Below, one piece after another: positions 2,604 through 61,900 of a stretch of 64,000 nt of DNA. The translations under genes and the position numbers were made by a program. This stretch comes from Methanomassiliicoccales archaeon (GTDB lineage: Archaea > Thermoplasmatota > Thermoplasmata > RBG-16-68-12 > SOIM01). Location: the NCBI GenBank assembly GCA_004377185.1, contig SOIM01000047.1, positions 1 to 64,000 of the forward strand. Reading direction: 5' to 3'. The notes beneath the pieces are model-generated. The model was not told the DNA's origin. It saw nothing but the letters and a program-made list of their open reading frames with translations, and ran no database searches. Each line of letters starts with the position of its first letter. Position 1 is the stretch's first letter.

Positions 2604-2706
2604 GACCCTTCCTGCTTGCGTTTCTTGCTATAATCCTCCTGTTTACGGTATTGGGTTTTGCAAAACTAATAGATTCCTATTAGATTCCTATTGAAAAGGT
2701 GCAATC

Positions 2707-3006
2707 ATGCTTGTCTATGCTCGGCGATGCTCGAATCGAACGAGCATTTTTTTGGCATTTTTGAGGTGTCATTGATGCTCCGACAGGGAATGCTCGTCTC
2801 CATGCTCGATTATGCTCGTTTTCTCGTGGATTTCAATGAGATTTCATGACAGTCTGGATGCATGAATCTCAGTGAGATCACCGAATTCAACCACATTCAC
2901 GTGATTATGCTCGTTTATGCTCGCCGATGCTCGAATCGAACGAGCATTTTTTAGCATTCCGCGGCATGCTCAACACAACTCCTGTGATTATGCTCGGGGA
3001 TGCTAG
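2707..3006. repeat. Satellite pair A, word ATGCTCG
   Basis: ATGCTCG or a close variant occurs forward at 2707, 2717, 2727, 2775, 2790, 2802, 2812, 2907, 2917, 2927, 2966, 2990 and 3000. The complement CGAGCAT occurs at 2741 and 2941. The block 2717-2747 recurs almost exactly 200 bp later at 2917-2947, including the inverted pair ATGCTCG ... CGAGCAT. The core between the two clusters is about 2823-2905. Confidence 0.85.
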
Positions 3007-3127
3007 GTGAGAAGGTGTGTCGAAGAGCGTCTGCGACCCCGATTTGACAGTCGACCCGACTGTTCACCACAATCACAGTTCTCGTTGTCCCCTCCGGCAT
3101 TCGCTTTTCTGCTAGTTCTCGAATTCA

Positions 3128-3410
3128 ACCCTCTATGTACCCTTCTAAACCCTCCAAAAAAGGGAAGGGTCTTGGAGGGTTTTCCTAGGGTTTCTGATAC
3201 CCTTCTACCGAAACCCTTCCTGTTGTACCCTTTTTTCAAGGGTCTTGCATTAGAATCATTGATTCTTCTTCATGGACTGGATACAGAAATATGATAATCA
3301 TTGCAGGATTCAATGCATCTCATGCACTAGACCCTTCAAACCCTTGCCGAAATAGGAGGGTACGGAAGGGTCTCGTAAGGGTCTCTGATAATACCCTATC
3401 AAGACCCTTC
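3128..3410. repeat. Satellite pair B, word ACCCTTC
   Basis: ACCCTTC-like words occur at 3128, 3139, 3149, 3199, 3213, 3227, 3331, 3340, 3393 and 3404. Complements (GAAGGGT, GGAGGGT, AAGGGT) occur at 3164, 3174, 3238, 3355, 3365 and 3377. The core between the clusters is 3243-3328, with ATGGACTGGATACA near 3272. A further core follows at about 3431-3516. Confidence 0.8.
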
Positions 3411-3518
3411 CTATTACGCCTCCCTTTCCGAGATTTCGCATAGAAATCATTCATGTTCTTCATTGAACTAGATGCGGAAAGATAGTAGACATGATAGGCT
3501 TCGACGACTTACACGTGA

Positions 3519-3815
3519 TTATGCCCCTATGATGCCCACCCGATGCCTCCCAGGAAGTAGGCATCTTAAGGCGTTTTCTTCGTGGTTCGAAATGCCTCCT
3601 TGTTGAATGCCCCCCCGATGCCCCCTTTTGTGCAAGACCTTGGATAGAAATCATGAGATTCATTGATGGACTGGATGCATAGATTTCGTTGATTGCACAA
3701 TAACTCAATGAATGCAACGGATCATGCCATTGAAATGCCCCCTAAATCGAATGCATACGAAGGCATTTTCGTCGTGCCTCCCGATGCCTTGCACAAAAGC
3801 CTGTTATCATGCCCT
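3519..3815. repeat. Satellite pair C, word ATGCCCC/ATGCCTC
   Basis: ATGCC words occur at 3521, 3532, 3543, 3592, 3607, 3618, 3724, 3735, 3784 and 3809. Reverse GGCAT occurs at 3560 and 3762. The arms GATGCC and GGCATC at 3542-3565 could form a hairpin. The core at about 3636-3722 has the best GGACTGGATGCATAG match, at 3668. Confidence 0.8.
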
Positions 3816-3918
3816 TTCCCACCCGTGTTTTTCAGTAATCTTGCCTTCCACCGGACTATCTAGATTCGAAGACTTGCGTGATGTGCGGAGAGTGCGCGGA
3901 TTTCCCGGTTCATAGTGG

Positions 3919-4202
3919 TATTATAGGGTCATTATAGGGTCAATATTCTCATGATTCGACCCTATTCGACCCTATAATTGACTATGCAGCGCATGGGGTC
4001 TTGAGGATGGGGTCCTTCGATGGGGTCTGATGGGGTCTTTTGCATAGATTTCAATACTATTGCTCGATGGACTGGATGCAATAATATCGATGATAATGCA
4101 TAGTTCAAGAAATGCAAGGCACGAATGGGGTAGTTATGGGGTATTAATGACCCCATTTCCGGGCATTCTGCGACCCCATTATCGACCCCCATCACGACCC
4201 TA
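3919..4202. repeat. Satellite pair D, words ATAGGGTC and ATGGGGTC
   Basis: ATAGGGTC at 3923 and 3934 is answered by GACCCTAT at 3958 and 3968. The word then changes to ATGGGGTC at 3993, 4007, 4020 and 4030. After the core (about 4038-4120) come ATGGGGT at 4125 and 4136, and GACCCCAT-like words at 4149, 4172, 4184 and 4196. One base of the word changed, and copies on both strands changed with it. Confidence 0.8.
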
Positions 4203-4274
4203 GGAATATCATCAAGGTTTTTTGTATTCGCACAATAGAAATCTGCTAGCAGCGTAATGGGATTATCTCCTTAG

Positions 4275-4622
4275 ATGCACATCGAAGTCCCTCTCAAGGT
4301 CAAGGCAAACAAGAACGGTCAAGTTGTGATTTCCCGCATAGTTCGAGAGGCGATGAAGGGTTCTCCGGGAGATCGCATCGAATAGTGCGACATAGATATC
4401 AGCAGAGATGAAGGTGAGATGACGTGCGTGGTAAGAAGGATTCCAAGAGACCCGCAGTGGAGGATTCAGATGTATGATCATGTGTTCCTTCTCGGTGAGA
4501 TGCACTTCATCAGCAAGGGCAGAGGGCTCTGCGGGAGTCTATCGACCCACTCTACGGTGCTGGAGGATTGGCGTATTGAGCCAGTGTGCATTCTTGTCGT
4601 AATCCAATATGACGACCTGTAG
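4275..4622 (+). pseudogene. AbrB-fold antitoxin/regulator gene interrupted by TAG
   Basis: From ATG 4275 the frame encodes a typical AbrB/SpoVT (MazE-like) swapped-hairpin domain, with GQVVISRIVREA and GDRIE. It meets TAG at 4383. The same frame stays open after the TAG to 4620 (CDIDISRDEGEM..., then a less convincing stretch). Known AbrB-type DNA-binding proteins of archaea usually carry a C-terminal extension, so this looks like one gene broken by a nonsense mutation. A 36-residue domain on its own is possible. The gene follows directly after the satellite. Confidence 0.5.
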
Positions 4623-6576: not shown

Positions 6577-6627
6577 AATGGGGTAATCTACACGCTTCAA
6601 TATAAGGGTTTCGTACCCCATTTAGTA

Positions 6628-6702
6628 CGGGCCCAGTGGGATTCGAACCCACGATCTCTTGGTCCGAAGCCAAGCGCCCTATCCTGGCTAGGCAATGGGC
6701 CC
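6628..6702 (-). tRNA. tRNA-Arg (anticodon TCG)
   Basis: The cloverleaf is complete: acceptor GGGCCCA with TGGGCCC, anticodon loop CTTCGGA with TCG at 34-36 (reads CGA), T-loop TTCGAAT, discriminator G, no encoded CCA. It lies downstream of argS on the same strand and next to the integrase. Confidence 0.95.
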
Positions 6703-6759
6703 ACTCTGACAAAATCCCAAAAGACATGAAAGAATTTAATATCGACTGCGTTTCCGAAA

Positions 6760-18315: not shown

Positions 18316-18362
18316 CCAACAGAGGAATTACTGTTGTCGTTGCGGGAAGTACGTTCAGAGCC

Positions 18363-18875
18363 TTGGCTCATGCCTCATACGCTCTCTTCCCACCGTTCTC
18401 CGCTTTGTGTTCAAAAACTCTCTTGCTCACTAGTGTCAAAGTCTTGGTGAGCCCTGATGCCGCAGCTAGGCTTCTCAGTTTGAGTTCTGGAACGACTTCT
18501 CGTGCAGAGACATCCTTGCTTGCTGTCAGGAGGAACATCGTCAGAAAACCACGCAGGGGCGTTCCTATTGTTTTTGCTCAGAAGGAAGCGTATCAGACTG
18601 AGGAATCTCATGAGATGGAAGTGAGAAGGCAAGCAAGACCCATGCTGCGAGAGAAGACCGAGGTGCGGGACACGTCCGACTTCGTGGATGCCGCGCCCAT
18701 CAAGCAAGAGGACACAAAGGTAAGCACAGAAGGTCTGCGCCGTTTCGTTCTGGAGAAGCTGCCTGAGAAATCAGTTCTGAGAGAGGTCATCCTCTCGGAA
18801 AAGGAGGAGCTGACGGCTGAGGAGTTCATAGCGAAGATGGAGGTTTGGCTGTTTCTTTTCAACCGCGAGAATTGA
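18363..18875 (+). CDS. VLREV-family protein, second copy (no integrase partner)
   Basis: 170 residues, paralogous to 4752. The shared blocks are VSPDAAARLLSL near residues 30-42 and the C-terminal block KSVLREVILSEKEELTAEEF followed by AKMEVWLFLFN. The central ~80 residues are poorly conserved and probably disordered. At 4752 an integrase converges on the gene; here that position holds a PKD surface protein, so the module is incomplete. The start is uncertain: the first ~20 residues are hydrophobic and unlike the paralog, so a later start is possible. Confidence 0.65.
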   Translation: MAHASYALFPPFSALCSKTLLLTSVKVLVSPDAAARLLSLSSGTTSRAETSLLAVRRNIVRKPRRGVPIVFAQKEAYQTEESHEMEVRRQARPMLREKTEVRDTSDFVDAAPIKQEDTKVSTEGLRRFVLEKLPEKSVLREVILSEKEELTAEEFIAKMEVWLFLFNREN

Positions 18876-18912
18876 GGAATGATCCGCTGGGATAGTTTTC
18901 GATGCTTATGGT

Positions 18913-23171: not shown

Positions 23172-23295
23172 TTGTTCAAGAAGGATGTCGGAGAATGACC
23201 TTGTTGTTTCGCAAAGCGGTGACGAATTCCCATCCTTCGGCCACGTACCTCTCTATCCCTCCATCTCCACCACTCTCTGGTGAGAGTTGTCATTT
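23172..23295. pseudogene. Relic of the VLREV-protein/integrase module beside tRNA-Arg
   Basis: At 23172-23198 the + strand encodes LFKKDVGE-stop, matching the LFRKDAEG end of the 4752 protein. On the reverse strand 23291-23200 encodes HQRVVEMEGIERYVAEGWEF, then VTALRNNKVILRHP, matching the last ~34 residues of the integrase at 5284. The convergent overlap is the same as at 5284-5306. The rest of both genes is gone. The relic ends about 10 bases from the tRNA-Arg(CCT) 3' end. Confidence 0.85.
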
Positions 23296-23305
23296 GAATA
23301 ATATA

Positions 23306-40368: not shown

Positions 40369-40614
40369 AGCTTAACATCATTTTCTCTTATAAAAAGATT
40401 ATGCTCATTAGCTTCACGGGTTGTCGCAGATGTTGAGAGTATGGCCAAGGCCGTTTGAAGTCTCGCCGTAAGACCGACAGTCAGATTCTCGCTCTTTTTC
40501 CGTTTGAGATGCTCTGCGCCTCAAATGGCCCGTGCTAGTATACTTCGAAGGATTTCAGAATCTTTATAATACTGATTGGGTATTACCACGTTAGTTTTAC
40601 GAGGTGAATGTACA

Positions 40615-41634
40615 ATGGAAGAAGGACAAGGATATAGTGAGCCAAGCAGTGCGCCTCCTCCGGCACCAGCGGCAGCACCAGCTCCCGCACCGAAGGCGAA
40701 GGGTGCAATCCCCGCTTTGGTTGTCGCGGTTATCGCGCTGGCCATCGCTCTGATTGGGATGGTGATGTTCCCTGGACCTACTGGATCGACAGGACCAGAT
40801 GGGGCGCCGGGAGCAGAAGGACAAGATGGGGATGACGGAGATAGAGGACCAACAGGACTTGCAGGTACAGCTGGCGCCGATGGTGCAGCTGGCGCCGATG
40901 GTGCAGCTGGCGCCGATGGTGCGGACGGTGCGGACGGCACCGCTTGTTGGGATCTGAATGAGAACGGTGTGAAGGATCTTGCAACCGAAGACATCAACGG
41001 CGATCTGGTTGTTGACGTGTTGGATTGTACAGGTGCGACAGGACCGGCAGGACCGGCAGGACCAGTAGGACCAGCAGGTGCTGACGGTGCAGACGGCATC
41101 GCCTGTTGGGACCTGAATGGGAACGGCGTAGGGGATGTTCCAGCCGAAGACATCAATGGTGATCTGGTCGTAGACGTGCTGGATTGTACAGGTGCGACGG
41201 GACCACCAGGACCACCAGGACCACCAGGACCGGGGGGGATTATGTCCTCGAATTATACCGACACTGACGTGGCATTCAACGGTTGCACGAACTTCCATAG
41301 CGTCACCATCACTGTACCATCAGCGGGTTCGGTGGTCGTCAGCGCGCTCGCGAAACTGACCCTCAACCACGTGAATGGCCAGCAATCTGGATGGGCAATC
41401 TTCGTTGAAGATGCTCCTGATGCCTGCGATTGGAGCCAAGCTTGGATAGACGAAAAAGGCGCTCTCGACCCAGACAACGGACTCTTGGAAAAGAGCGGTT
41501 TCTTGGTGAAGGATTTCCCCGTTGCTGCAGCTGGAACCTACACTTTCTATGTGAACGGGTACATGTGGTTTGGCGAGGACGCGGCGGACGAATTTGACCA
41601 TTCTTGGATGATTGCAACCTTCTACCCATCCTGA
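40615..41634 (+). CDS. Collagen-like surface protein, copy 1
   Basis: 339 residues from ATG 40615 with GAGGTGA upstream; TATA TCTTTATAAT at 40561. A short Pro/Ala-rich cytoplasmic start precedes one membrane helix (AIPALVVAVIALAIALIGMVMF, about residues 29-50). Then Gly-X-Y tracts (GPTGSTGPDGAPGAEGQDGD and others) alternate with two Cys-bounded DxNxNGxxD segments (CWDLNENGVKDL, DINGDLVVDVLDC), resembling EF-hand/dockerin loops. The C-terminal ~125 residues are a globular beta-rich head (HSVTITVPSAGSVVVSALAK), TNF/C1q-like in its tail-fibre-like arrangement. Confidence 0.8.
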   Translation: MEEGQGYSEPSSAPPPAPAAAPAPAPKAKGAIPALVVAVIALAIALIGMVMFPGPTGSTGPDGAPGAEGQDGDDGDRGPTGLAGTAGADGAAGADGAAGADGADGADGTACWDLNENGVKDLATEDINGDLVVDVLDCTGATGPAGPAGPVGPAGADGADGIACWDLNGNGVGDVPAEDINGDLVVDVLDCTGATGPPGPPGPPGPGGIMSSNYTDTDVAFNGCTNFHSVTITVPSAGSVVVSALAKLTLNHVNGQQSGWAIFVEDAPDACDWSQAWIDEKGALDPDNGLLEKSGFLVKDFPVAAAGTYTFYVNGYMWFGEDAADEFDHSWMIATFYPS

Positions 41635-41848
41635 TTGATCTGGTACGAGCTGAGCTGCTCGCTCGAATCCTAATCTCCGCCACAAAAGCAAGCAGAATCA
41701 TCTGACTCCATGGAGATCTAGCCTCAATAGGCCGTTCGAATTACCCTATCTAGCAGAAGCAAGAGACCTCTAGAAGCCGTAGTGTGCGTGCCAATAAGAC
41801 TTCGGAATCATTATAATAATGGACAGTCATTATCGCTGCAGTTTTGAG

Positions 41849-42640
41849 GTGAATGTACAATGGAAGAAGGACAAGGATAATAGTGAGCCAAGCAGTGCGC
41901 CTCCTCCGGCACCAGCGGCAGCACCAGCTCCCGCACCGAAGGCGAAGGGTGCAATCCCCGCTTTGGTTGTCGCGGTTATCGCGCTGGCCATCGCTCTGAT
42001 TGGGATGGTGATGTTCCCTGGACCTACTGGATCGACAGGACCAGAGGGCGCACCGGGAGTAGACGGACAGGATGGAGATGACGGAGATAGAGGACCAACA
42101 GGACCTGCAGGTACAGCTGGCGCCGATGGTGCGGACGGTACAGACGGCACGAACGGTACGGACGGCACGAACGGTACGGACGGTACGGACGGCACCGCCT
42201 GTTGGGATCTGAATGAGAACGGTGTGAAGGATCTTGCAACCGAAGACATCAACGGCGATTTGGTTGTTGACGTGCTGGATTGTACAGGTGCGACGGGACC
42301 AGCAGGACCAGCAGGACCACAGGGAATACAGGGACCGCCTGGGACCCCGGCCACGGTGTTGTGGGCGGTCGTCGAATCGGACGGAACGCTCGCCCGCGGG
42401 AGCAACGTGGCGAGTACCAACCAGATGGCCACGGGCCAATACACTGTCCGTTTCAACCAGGACGTGCGCGGTTGCGCCTACGTCGCGACGCTCGGTTTGA
42501 CCAGTTTCGTAGGGGTAGCACTGCCGGGGAGTATTACCGTCGTTGGTGAGTTTATGGACCCGAGCGGCGTCTGGGTCTCGACCTACGACATATCTGGAGC
42601 GGACGATGACCGATCGTTCCACCTTACCGTATTCTGCTAG
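41849..42640 (+). CDS. Collagen-like surface protein, copy 2 (start shifted)
   Basis: The first ~140 codons are almost identical to 40615, membrane helix included, then there is one Cys-bounded EF-like segment and a different head (VLWAVVESDGTLARGSNVAS...VSTYDISGADDDRSFHLTVF). At the start, copy 1 has GGATATAGTG where copy 2 has GGATAATAGTG. The extra A puts the original ATG (41860) out of frame, ending after six codons. The large frame can start at GTG 41849 or ATG 41819. The TATA near 41808-41818 makes GTG 41849 more plausible. It may be expressed poorly. Confidence 0.6.
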   Translation: MNVQWKKDKDNSEPSSAPPPAPAAAPAPAPKAKGAIPALVVAVIALAIALIGMVMFPGPTGSTGPEGAPGVDGQDGDDGDRGPTGPAGTAGADGADGTDGTNGTDGTNGTDGTDGTACWDLNENGVKDLATEDINGDLVVDVLDCTGATGPAGPAGPQGIQGPPGTPATVLWAVVESDGTLARGSNVASTNQMATGQYTVRFNQDVRGCAYVATLGLTSFVGVALPGSITVVGEFMDPSGVWVSTYDISGADDDRSFHLTVFC

Positions 42641-58755: not shown

Positions 58756-58801
58756 ACCATTGGGAACTCCTCCACATCTACTTCTGGCTTTGCCTCGCGT
58801 A

Positions 58802-58942
58802 GTTAACCATAAACATGGTTAACCTGAATTCGGTTTCCAGTCAACCTAAACAGCTCAAAAGTTAACCATAAACATGGTTAACTCGAATTTGGAATCCAGG
58901 CAACCACAAACAGCTCAAAAGTTAACCATAAACATGGTTAAC
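58802..58942. repeat. Three 22-bp hairpin repeats, ~60 bp period
   Basis: Inverted repeat GTTAACCAT-AAAC-ATGGTTAAC (9 bp arms) occurs at 58802-58823, 58861-58882 and 58921-58942. The two 37-38 bp spacers are themselves similar (both end AACAGCTCAAAA), so it is a 60 bp tandem repeat. The third copy contains the TAA stop of the protease gene. Convergent genes end on both sides, so a role in 3'-end formation or mRNA stability is possible. Confidence 0.8.
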
Positions 58943-61900
58943 TCTTGCTCTCCTCGTCTGGAGCAAGCTCCTCCGCCAATTGCTCCTCCCTTGGCGGCTC
59001 GGTTTCTTTCGCTGGACTAACACTGGCAGGGACTGATTTCCTCGCTCTCAATAGCATATAGAGGAGCAAAACAAGCAGCACTGCGAAGACAATAACGAAT
59101 ACCCACCAGAAGTCCTCAACTCCCAAACCTTTCAGTGGATCGTCGTCCAACCCATCTATGGTGCCATCCCCGTCCGTATCCCGATTCTCCGGATCGGTTC
59201 CCATGTTGAACTCTTCCAGATTGTTGAGGTAGTCACTGTCAGGGTCGTCAATTGCACCGTAGTCCAGATTTCCGAACTGTTCCTCTTCCCAGATGTCAGG
59301 AAGTCCGTCCTGGTCTGTATCATCTTCGGGAACGACGATTATTCGGGTCGTGTCCTCATCTGTGTTCCCAGCTCGGTCGGTTACTCGCAGAACGACTTCG
59401 AACACCCCAACATTGTCGAAATCATAGCTGGGGTCTGCCCCTTCCAACTCGATATTGCTTCCACCATCTGAGAATGTCCACGAGAAGCTGGCTATGTCAT
59501 CATTGTCGGTCGATCCAGATCCATCGAAGCCGAATATTGCTCTTTGGATGATCGTTGCGTCCTGTCCAGCCTGGGCGTCAGGCGGAGTTGTATCAACAAA
59601 CACATTCCTCTGAACGCTGTTGCAATTGCCTGCCTGGTCGCACGCTTTCACGTACACGGCGTTATCTCCTTCTGACAAAGCTATGACAACATCGAAGGAG
59701 CCGTTCGCCTCCACCTCAAATAGCTGACCGTTTATGGTCAGGGTTACGTCAGGTTCCGAACTCCCTTGCACTTGTGTCGATGTCTGTCGCGATATGAGAC
59801 CGTTGACTGGGTTCGTTACTTGCAGCGGAGGAGCCAATGTGTCCAGGACAACAGATCTTTGTACGCTGTTTGTGTTTCCGGCCATGTCCGTTACGTTCAC
59901 GAAGATGTTATTCTGTCCCGAGACCAAGATGAGGCTGGTGGAGAAGCTTCCGTCCGGTTGAACTGTGACTGGATTGCCATTCATCTGTAGGGTTGCGGAG
60001 GGTTCGGTCCAACCGCTTACCGGAGTATTCTGAACGTTTGTGATTAGGCCATCCTCAGGAGAGTCTAGGAAGAGATGGGGTGGGATTGTGTCTACATTTA
60101 CTGTTACCAGCATATTCGCCTTGTTCCCAGCAGCATCTTCAGCACTCACGCTTACAGGGTTCGAACCCTCGAAGAGTGCAACGGGAACCTCGAAGGACCC
60201 GTCCGATTGGACTACCGCCAATTGACCACCCACAGAAACGGTCGCACCCGCCTCAGTGCTACCTCTGAAGACCACGGTCGGGTAGTTGACCCAGGAACCG
60301 TCCAAAGGCTCGCTCACGCTCAGTGGTGGAGGTACGGTGTCCAAGATTACCGTTCTGTCGATTGTCTTGAAGTTGCCAGCCGGATCCCTCGCTTCCACCG
60401 AGATGATGTTCTGCCCTTCATTGAGGCTTCTGAACGTGGAGAATGATCCATTCGGAGATACTGACGTTGGGGCCCCGTTCACTGTGAGCGATGCGTCTGC
60501 CTCTGTTGAACCAGAGACCACCACCAAGGCATTGTTCGTTATCAGGCCGTCAGGTGGCTCCACCACCGCAAGGTAGGGTGGAATGGTATCCACTGTGAAA
60601 CCCCAGGTGGTTGTGTTCTCGTTCCCGAAGTTGTCCTTTGCGGACACGCTTACCCAGTGCAGTCCTTCAGTAAGCAGGAAGGGAGTCGCCCAGAAGATCG
60701 AATCCGAGGTGATGGTCGCCAAATTGGTGATGTTGAACCCATCCACCAGCATCACCAGCGACGATAGGTTCATTCCAGAGCCGGTATCCGAGAAGCTCGC
60801 ACCCATGATTGGTTGGTTGTCGTTTATTATCGACCCTGGTGCGGGAGTTAGATTGGTGAACTCCGGAGGATAGTCACGGACCTCTCCGTAGAACCGTACG
60901 GACAGGACCTCGGAAGCCATGGACGGTCCCGCGAATATTATTCCATGATACATTCCATCTGCGGCGGGGAGGCTGTAGGAGCCGTTGAAGTTCTTAGGTT
61001 GATAGGCCTCCAAGGGTCCCGTTGGGACATTGCTCACCGTTAAATCCCTTCCTTGGATGGCATCTATGTCTATATTGAAAGTGGAAGAGCCACCTCCCAC
61101 CGCCCATCCGTGTACGAAAATCCAGTACTTCCCGTCGGTGGGCTTCTTCATGGAGATGCTCTCCGTATCATCCGGCGATGTGGAGGATGCAACAATCTCG
61201 CTGCCCCAGTTCGGTATGCCGTTCGAGTTAGCATCCCTCAGGACGTACAAGTCGATGTCTATCGAGTAAGCACTGTCTATCAAAACCTCCAGTAAGCCAC
61301 CATCCTGTATGTCCAGCTCGAAGGACCAGCTCGAAGTGGATGCGTCGAATGGATTGTCCTGCAGTATTGTCTCATCTGTGAATTCAATAGGTTGCGATAC
61401 ACCGAAAGCGGTGACGTTCACGTCCGGGAGATTGATGGTCGAATTGATCAAGAACACCTCATCACCGGTCAGCAGGGAGAAATCGCTCACCTCACCAACA
61501 TCCCAAGGATTCGGGTTGAGTTCAATGGTCCCAACATCAACAGACATGTTCTCGGTGGAATCCAGTCCAGCGTTGAGGACGTTGTGTAGCACAATCTCCC
61601 ACAGACCGGGAGTGAGATCAGCAGCGACGATCTCCTGGGGACCTCCGGTCACTGTATTGAACATGAACCTGCCTCCCCCGATCCAGTAGTCCGCACTCCT
61701 TCCTTTGATGTCAAGATAGCCAGGTCCGTATCTCTCGGGATGATTCGTTGAGAAACTGTCGGGCGTTTCGCCCAGCAGGAAGACATCGATATCGGTGGGA
61801 ATATACTCCCAGCTCACATTCGCAACGAGCTGCTGCCCCTGCTTGAAGGAGCCGTCAGGGATGTCCACGAAGTAGTACCGCCAATCTCCAGACTCATATC

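Follow-up and report, generated by a model that had tools for sequence, protein, structure and literature searches.

Iteron origins carry replicon-specific repeats, usually direct and at one site, which are read by an initiator. The subterminal repeats of CACTA and hAT elements are short family-specific motifs in both orientations, located at the ends of transposons with a DDE transposase. In C. perfringens, ParR-B binds 8-bp repeats lying 3 bp apart, and differences in parC set incompatibility (PMC9426499). The parS of pSM19035 comprises 7-10 heptads in both orientations, with six sites per plasmid (PMC9499535). Cluster A phages possess up to about 30 stoperators of 13 bp per genome, and the stoperator motif varies between these phages with the specificity of the repressor (PMC6550527).

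The stretch of DNA analysed here (the window, 64,000 nucleotides; its RNase P is archaeal) contains four units of about 400 bp each at 2707-4205 (Table 1). By a motif search of both strands, each unit possesses 14-17 copies of a single word of 7-8 bp; because the motif finder fits the words unit by unit, the numbers of sites and the distances between them are somewhat biased in favour of its model. The order within units is nearly constant: FFF-RR(R)-FFF(F), the core, then FF(F)-RR(R)- and often a final FF. The words of units 1 to 4 are ATGCTCG, ACCCT(TC), ATGCC(C/T)C and AT(G/A)GGGT, and the core approximates GATGGACTGGATGCA. Words and coordinates were as described in an initial annotation of the region. 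Its view that each cluster has one word is not perfectly borne out: unit 4 is mixed, with ATAGGGTC in the left sub-cluster and ATGGGGTC in the remainder, and the word of unit 3 (ATGCCNN) is the loosest. The alternation of clusters and cores at about 200 bp, likewise claimed, was found in five of seven segments, and the actual repeat period is about 400 bp. Three segments separate the units, and 3405-3525 alone gives an alignment to the core that exceeds shuffled sequence; the alignments of 3010-3130 and 3790-3910 stay within the shuffled range. The additional core at 3425-3505 has different words on either side (ACCCTTC to the left, ATGCC to the right) and may be what a deletion or a fusion of units left behind.

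Table 1. Features of the word array and of the genes that follow it, in positions of the window (F, forward word; R, reverse word).
Feature	Position	Strand	Details
Unit 1 left cluster, ATGCTCG	2707..2818	+	F 2707, 2717, 2727; R 2741; F 2775, 2790, 2802, 2812
Unit 1 core, GACAGTCTGGATGCA at 2848	2836..2875	+	
Unit 1 right cluster, ATGCTCG	2907..3006	+	F 2907, 2917, 2927; R 2941, 2951; F 2966, 2990, 3000
Unit 2 left cluster, ACCCT(TC)	3126..3245	+	F 3126, 3137, 3147; R 3166, 3176, 3187; F 3197, 3211, 3225; R 3239
Unit 2 core, TCATGGACTGGATACA around 3271	3260..3320	+	
Unit 2 right cluster, ACCCTTC	3329..3408	+	F, R, F
Extra core (diverged), in the segment from unit 2 to unit 3	3425..3505	+	local score 23, shuffle maximum 13
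Unit 3 left cluster, ATGCC(C/T)C	3521..3624	+	
Unit 3 core, GATGGACTGGATGCA at 3665	3653..3692	+	
Unit 3 right cluster, ATGCC(C/T)C	3724..3815	+	
Unit 4 left cluster	3923..4036	+	FF/RR ATAGGGT, then four F ATGGGGT
Unit 4 core, GATGGACTGGATGCA at 4066	4054..4093	+	
Unit 4 right cluster, ATGGGGT	4125..4203	+	FF, then RR and two weak R
AGGAATATCATCA, unit-end motif	4202..4214	+	joint of the deletion distinguishing the window from L011
AbrB-like ORF, candidate reader, now broken	4275..4502	+	TAG after 36 codons
Integrase partner gene, 184 aa	4752..5306	+	shorter counterpart beside the integrase in L146 and L176 (by eye)
Tyrosine integrase of the element, 445 aa	5284..6621	-	
tRNA-Arg(TCG), presumed attachment site	6627..6703	-	

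Among the systems closest to the arrays are centromeres of the ParMRC and ParABS types, such as parC of the pCW3-like plasmids of C. perfringens (PMC9426499) and parS of pSM19035 (PMC9499535), which likewise consist of clusters of short repeats (heptads to 17 bp), some direct and inverted, and in which the sequence of the repeat differs among otherwise similar plasmids and sets incompatibility. For 130 of 203 pairs of neighbouring words in the same orientation the distance is 10-11 bp, which matches the centromeric spacing of about one turn of B-DNA. The arrays differ in being archaeal, in having about 14 sites flanking a conserved core and up to five words per element, in the exchange of the word in place in homologous units, and in that no NTPase was found among the ORFs scanned. 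Like cluster A stoperators, they comprise many short sites whose sequence changes between relatives, there with repressor specificity (PMC6550527); stoperators, however, are scattered over the genome, mostly in one orientation, with no fixed two-cluster unit around a core. Iteron repeats are also specific for their replicon, but the arrays include inverted copies and no initiator gene was recognised among the scanned ORFs. No transposon ends with a DDE transposase, as expected of CACTA or hAT repeats, were seen at the arrays.

The units might be the centromere or replication origin (parC- or iteron-like) of the free form of the element, with words that load a partition or initiator protein around an AT-rich core and a change of word amounting to a change of incompatibility group. 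Two clusters of roughly 8-bp repeats spaced at about one turn around a core do resemble parC, and an AT-rich segment beside the repeats is present (the unit 4 core has 36% G+C, the window 51%). However, the ORFs scanned beside the arrays, a part of those in the L012, L011, L146 and window elements, included no recognisable ParA, ParM or TubZ NTPase and no recognisable initiator of replication, and it would be unusual for the centromere of one element to comprise four or five units whose words differ. In this pure form the explanation is possible, if rather doubtful.

The words are far denser than a Markov null predicts. In the arrays of relatives the best 7-mer occurs 11-16 times per 300 bp (at most one mismatch, both strands), compared with a mean of 5.2 and a maximum of 8 under this null (300 draws). 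Counted as exact matches, ATGCTCG reaches 11, ACCCTTC 7 and ACCCCAT 8 in the window. If the core is excluded, 25-38% of the 6-mers are common to the two halves of a unit in the window, and the true left-right pairing is the best of all 24. Across 19 units from six loci, which are non-independent samples, halves share 0.293 of their 6-mers with their own partner; random pairing gives 0.088 and at most 0.173 in 20,000 draws. The proposal that words are uniform within pairs and differ between them therefore survives, because halves share 6-mers with their own partner and hardly with other units. This test and the counts in homologous pairs, made on well-matching sites, depend less on the motif finder. 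The region had been called a satellite, and this label was wrong: Tandem Repeats Finder reported nothing at 2650-4245, no long near-identical repeat of the CRISPR or tandem satellite kind is present, and the units are part of integrative elements.

Twenty-one further units arranged as in the window, mostly with other words, were found in the same genome (a 2.64-Mb draft) and in four others of its order, likewise drafts. Their words include ATACGGA, TGCGGA, CTCCTAA, CACCTAA, CTACTAA, TTCTACGA and GGCAGA, and the layout is broadly retained across the units that were motif-searched. Unit 4 has a second copy in the same genome, at locus L011 (95% identical), where its neighbours are units with ATGGCTT, ATGCCTT and ATACGG. 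The named relatives with arrays, all metagenome-assembled, are Methanomassiliicoccales archaeon CSMAG_404 (G004), with the words ATGCTC(A) and TGCGG, and Thermoplasmata archaeon RS_14_3 (G014) and Ca. Thermoplasmatota bin211 (G016), with CTCCTAA, CACCTAA, CTACTAA, TTCTACGA, TTCTASCA and GGCAGA; the last two genomes were reached via a neighbouring protein and then by DNA. GCTACA, GTTACA and AATAGC words around a different type of core were found via the recombinase in G005 and G016. Places in G006, G017, G027 and G141 proved to be short chance matches, and arrays are absent there. An exact search of IMG/VR for the core returned 109 stretches, and those inspected had no word array around it; protein-guided IMG/VR searches gave no relative, and blastn against phage and plasmid collections no match. 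At the far right end of the ATGCTCA unit of L012 (3915-3968) lies a sequence resembling ACCCCAT, which unit 4 in the window also has; it is either a conserved flank or a leftover of old words.

Homologous units that differ in their word can be aligned over their whole length. From L147_b to L146_4, whose background identity is 86.7%, the third letter of the word has gone from T to A at every one of the 11 sites, whichever strand they are on, and the other inner letters are almost unchanged. If sites are assumed to be independent, eleven equal changes at the background rate have a chance probability of (0.133/3)^11, about 1e-15. From L149B to L146_4 A is replaced by T at 11 of 12 sites, and from L011d to L012b A by G at all eight informative sites (those with A). 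It had been stated that the word was swapped everywhere at once. As a description of the outcome this is correct, but some units are mixed: L011d (L011 8410-8700) has TACGG-type words at 11/12 sites on the left and TGCGG at 4/6 on the right, and unit 4 of the window has ATAGGGT in the outer left sub-cluster and ATGGGGT in the rest. From these mixed units it looks as if the word is replaced site by site rather than in one copying event. In homologues with the same word, words are slightly more conserved (491/518) than spacers (827/898), in pairs that are not independent, and hence present-day purifying selection on the words is weakly indicated.

A mutational or copying process, such as templated rewriting or conversion among word copies, could change words with no selection by a reader. 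It would explain the concerted change across all sites, and the units do look like duplicated cassettes. On the other hand, sites change in place with their spacers retained, the mixed units show stepwise change and no reverse transcriptase was noticed among the listed ORFs near the arrays. We regard this process as most improbable.

The initial annotation had left two possibilities, a DNA-binding protein of changing specificity or paired arms that co-vary. In the second case the units would form a structured RNA or a cruciform. Facing runs do have words that are 80% complementary, and RNA folding is stronger than in shuffles in many units (z -0.7 to -8.6), although such scores may arise from the inverted word copies alone. 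Spacers within the supposed stems, in contrast, are complementary at chance level (21%, 9/43), and a stem under selection would include its own spacers. There is also no reason why independent stems should use one common word or why words should be spaced by one helical turn, and Rfam gave no match at the arrays. Co-varying arms are thus disfavoured, and a structured nucleic acid seems very unlikely. Because inverted words pair and spacers do not, a protein on double-stranded DNA fits better. We infer that the reader of the words is a protein, as the one-letter switches at all homologous sites, the spacing and the unpaired spacers all suggest.

The leading candidate for this reader is a small AbrB-like protein encoded directly downstream of units. 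Each of the nine AbrB-like ORFs or fragments has a unit 60-161 bp upstream, in the same direction, and among 19 loci none was found away from units. They share with AbrB/MazE regulators the small size, the pattern K.N..Q.VIP..R and a position downstream of a putative operator, but their matches are below the cut-offs: PF14250 in Pfam with E 0.027, the other ORFs being under the cut-off or unmatched, and a weak match to 2glw in the PDB with E 0.22. Several of the ORFs are broken and few are intact, and units L146_1, L146_4, L146_5 and L149B are followed by none. AbrB contacts DNA through its N-terminal loop, and among the few intact pairs this loop differs between most units with different words. 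The proteins of L149C and L146_3, whose words are related (TTCTACGA and TTCTASCA), are 90% identical, and three of their six differing positions fall within the loop. Decoding of the TAG in the window ORF as pyrrolysine was ruled out, since no PylS exceeded the cut-off in the genome. A stretch between two AGGAATATCATCA copies is present in L011 and absent from the window; the AbrB-like ORF of the window therefore probably once followed an ATACGGA-type unit and not unit 4.

With a unit 5' of every AbrB-like ORF, the units could be purely operator or immunity arrays. Each would be the promoter-operator of an adjacent AbrB-like or MEEDEK-type gene, with no role in partition and with word changes of the immunity type. 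L149C and L011d lie between divergent genes of these two types, and the arrays can be likened to the stoperators of cluster A mycobacteriophages (PMC6550527). A fold search with the MEEDEK-type model gave no significant match. On the other side, about 14 sites across 300 bp, placed around a core that is strictly conserved, are more than would be required to repress a single promoter, and some units are not directly followed by a gene. As a complete account this is about as doubtful as a pure centromere.

Other neighbours of the arrays are a winged-helix gene and, in divergent orientation to it, the gene of a small tyrosine recombinase. The pair borders arrays in L012, L146, L147, L176 and L182, in each case with the array on the 3' side of the winged-helix gene, and is absent from the window. 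The winged-helix fold is predicted for the N-terminal domain (pLDDT about 75), and a fold search returned generic winged-helix matches and nothing more. The L146 and L147 proteins are 92% identical and their nearest units have different words. Such near-identity beside different words makes the winged-helix protein a less likely reader of the words; the core may be what it reads. The pair might also mean that each unit is an attP-like recombination site, with the core as crossover and the words as arm sites for the winged-helix partner. The recombinase, of a family almost restricted to this order, is short (235 aa), as though the part that binds DNA lay outside it. However, the word is the same on the two sides of a unit, and no half-swapped unit resembling attL or attR was seen except the degenerate core at about 3463. 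The recombinases of G000 C4, G000 C16 and G002 have no array nearby. Moreover, known arm-type systems have far fewer sites than these units. A recombination site is consequently an unlikely function.

The array of the window is followed by the AbrB-like ORF with its in-frame TAG, the partner gene, the tyrosine integrase and tRNA-Arg(TCG). The region is best explained as the remnant of a mobile element that had inserted at the tRNA gene. To the left of the array, a search for another att copy of this tRNA gave none. The element looks decayed, since the AbrB-like gene is broken and the winged-helix/recombinase module absent. Elsewhere in the window, a decayed second copy of the partner gene (18339-18878) and a C-terminal integrase fragment adjoining tRNA-Arg(CCT) (23179-23297) are remains of another element of this type, there without a word array. 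Proteins encoded next to arrays contain the HExxH motifs HELLH and HEAIH (L146:4500-4640, L011:6045-6737) and possibly have metalloprotease-like domains.

On balance it appears somewhat more likely than not that the units are binding arrays of the operator or centromere type, with a specificity that changes in the manner of plasmid incompatibility or phage immunity, the AbrB-like protein being a candidate reader. Each unit would be a multi-site array for a DNA-binding protein encoded by the element. With about 14 sites turned to the same side of the helix, and with direct and inverted copies in constant order to the left and right of the core, the protein could cooperatively coat the DNA or wrap it around the core, and an AbrB-like reader might regulate itself through its own array. 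Cross-binding among related elements and among unit copies in the same cell would have to be avoided, and for this reason word and reader would change jointly. This pressure would re-set specificity, as in incompatibility of partition or replication or in repressor immunity. Since one element has several different words, several readers or relic units are needed. A partition-like and an operator-like role are about equally likely. That the arrays form an undescribed archaeal family, with up to five orthogonal word/reader pairs per element and a word rewritten repeatedly, site by site, at about 14 fixed positions, is a tentative proposal to which we give slightly less than an even chance.

These arrays bear on the old question of how specificity can change jointly in a DNA-binding protein and at all the sites that it recognises. 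In homologous arrays one letter has changed at every site with the frame kept, and mixed units look intermediate. If the proposal is true, they would be a natural record of specificity switching without loss of nucleoprotein architecture. They would likewise provide orthogonal reader/operator pairs of archaeal origin and an initial view of cross-talk avoidance among these Thermoplasmata elements.

A family of small-RNA-like genes with about 14 copies was also observed, two of them directly left of word arrays. In each, a TATA-like CTTATATAG precedes TTATCTAAGCATCCCTCCACAACGA, after which come a G+C hairpin (GGCCGTTC..GAACGGCC) and a run of T. Copies are located at L011:7003-7085, L011:11302-11386 and L012:3374-3459, in L174 and L180, and at about ten more places in G000 (C54, C42, C30, C34, C17, C56, C4, C47 and C43). 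Rfam gave no match for the copies in L011 and L012. The CCCUCCAC of the family could pair with Shine-Dalgarno sequences. Other repeats of the window are a long duplicated coding region at 40551-42320, collagen-like and rich in repeats with periods of 9, 18 and 159 bp, and a 59-bp tandem repeat at 58801-58944, present in 2.4 copies with the palindrome GTTAACCATAAACATGGTTAAC inside.
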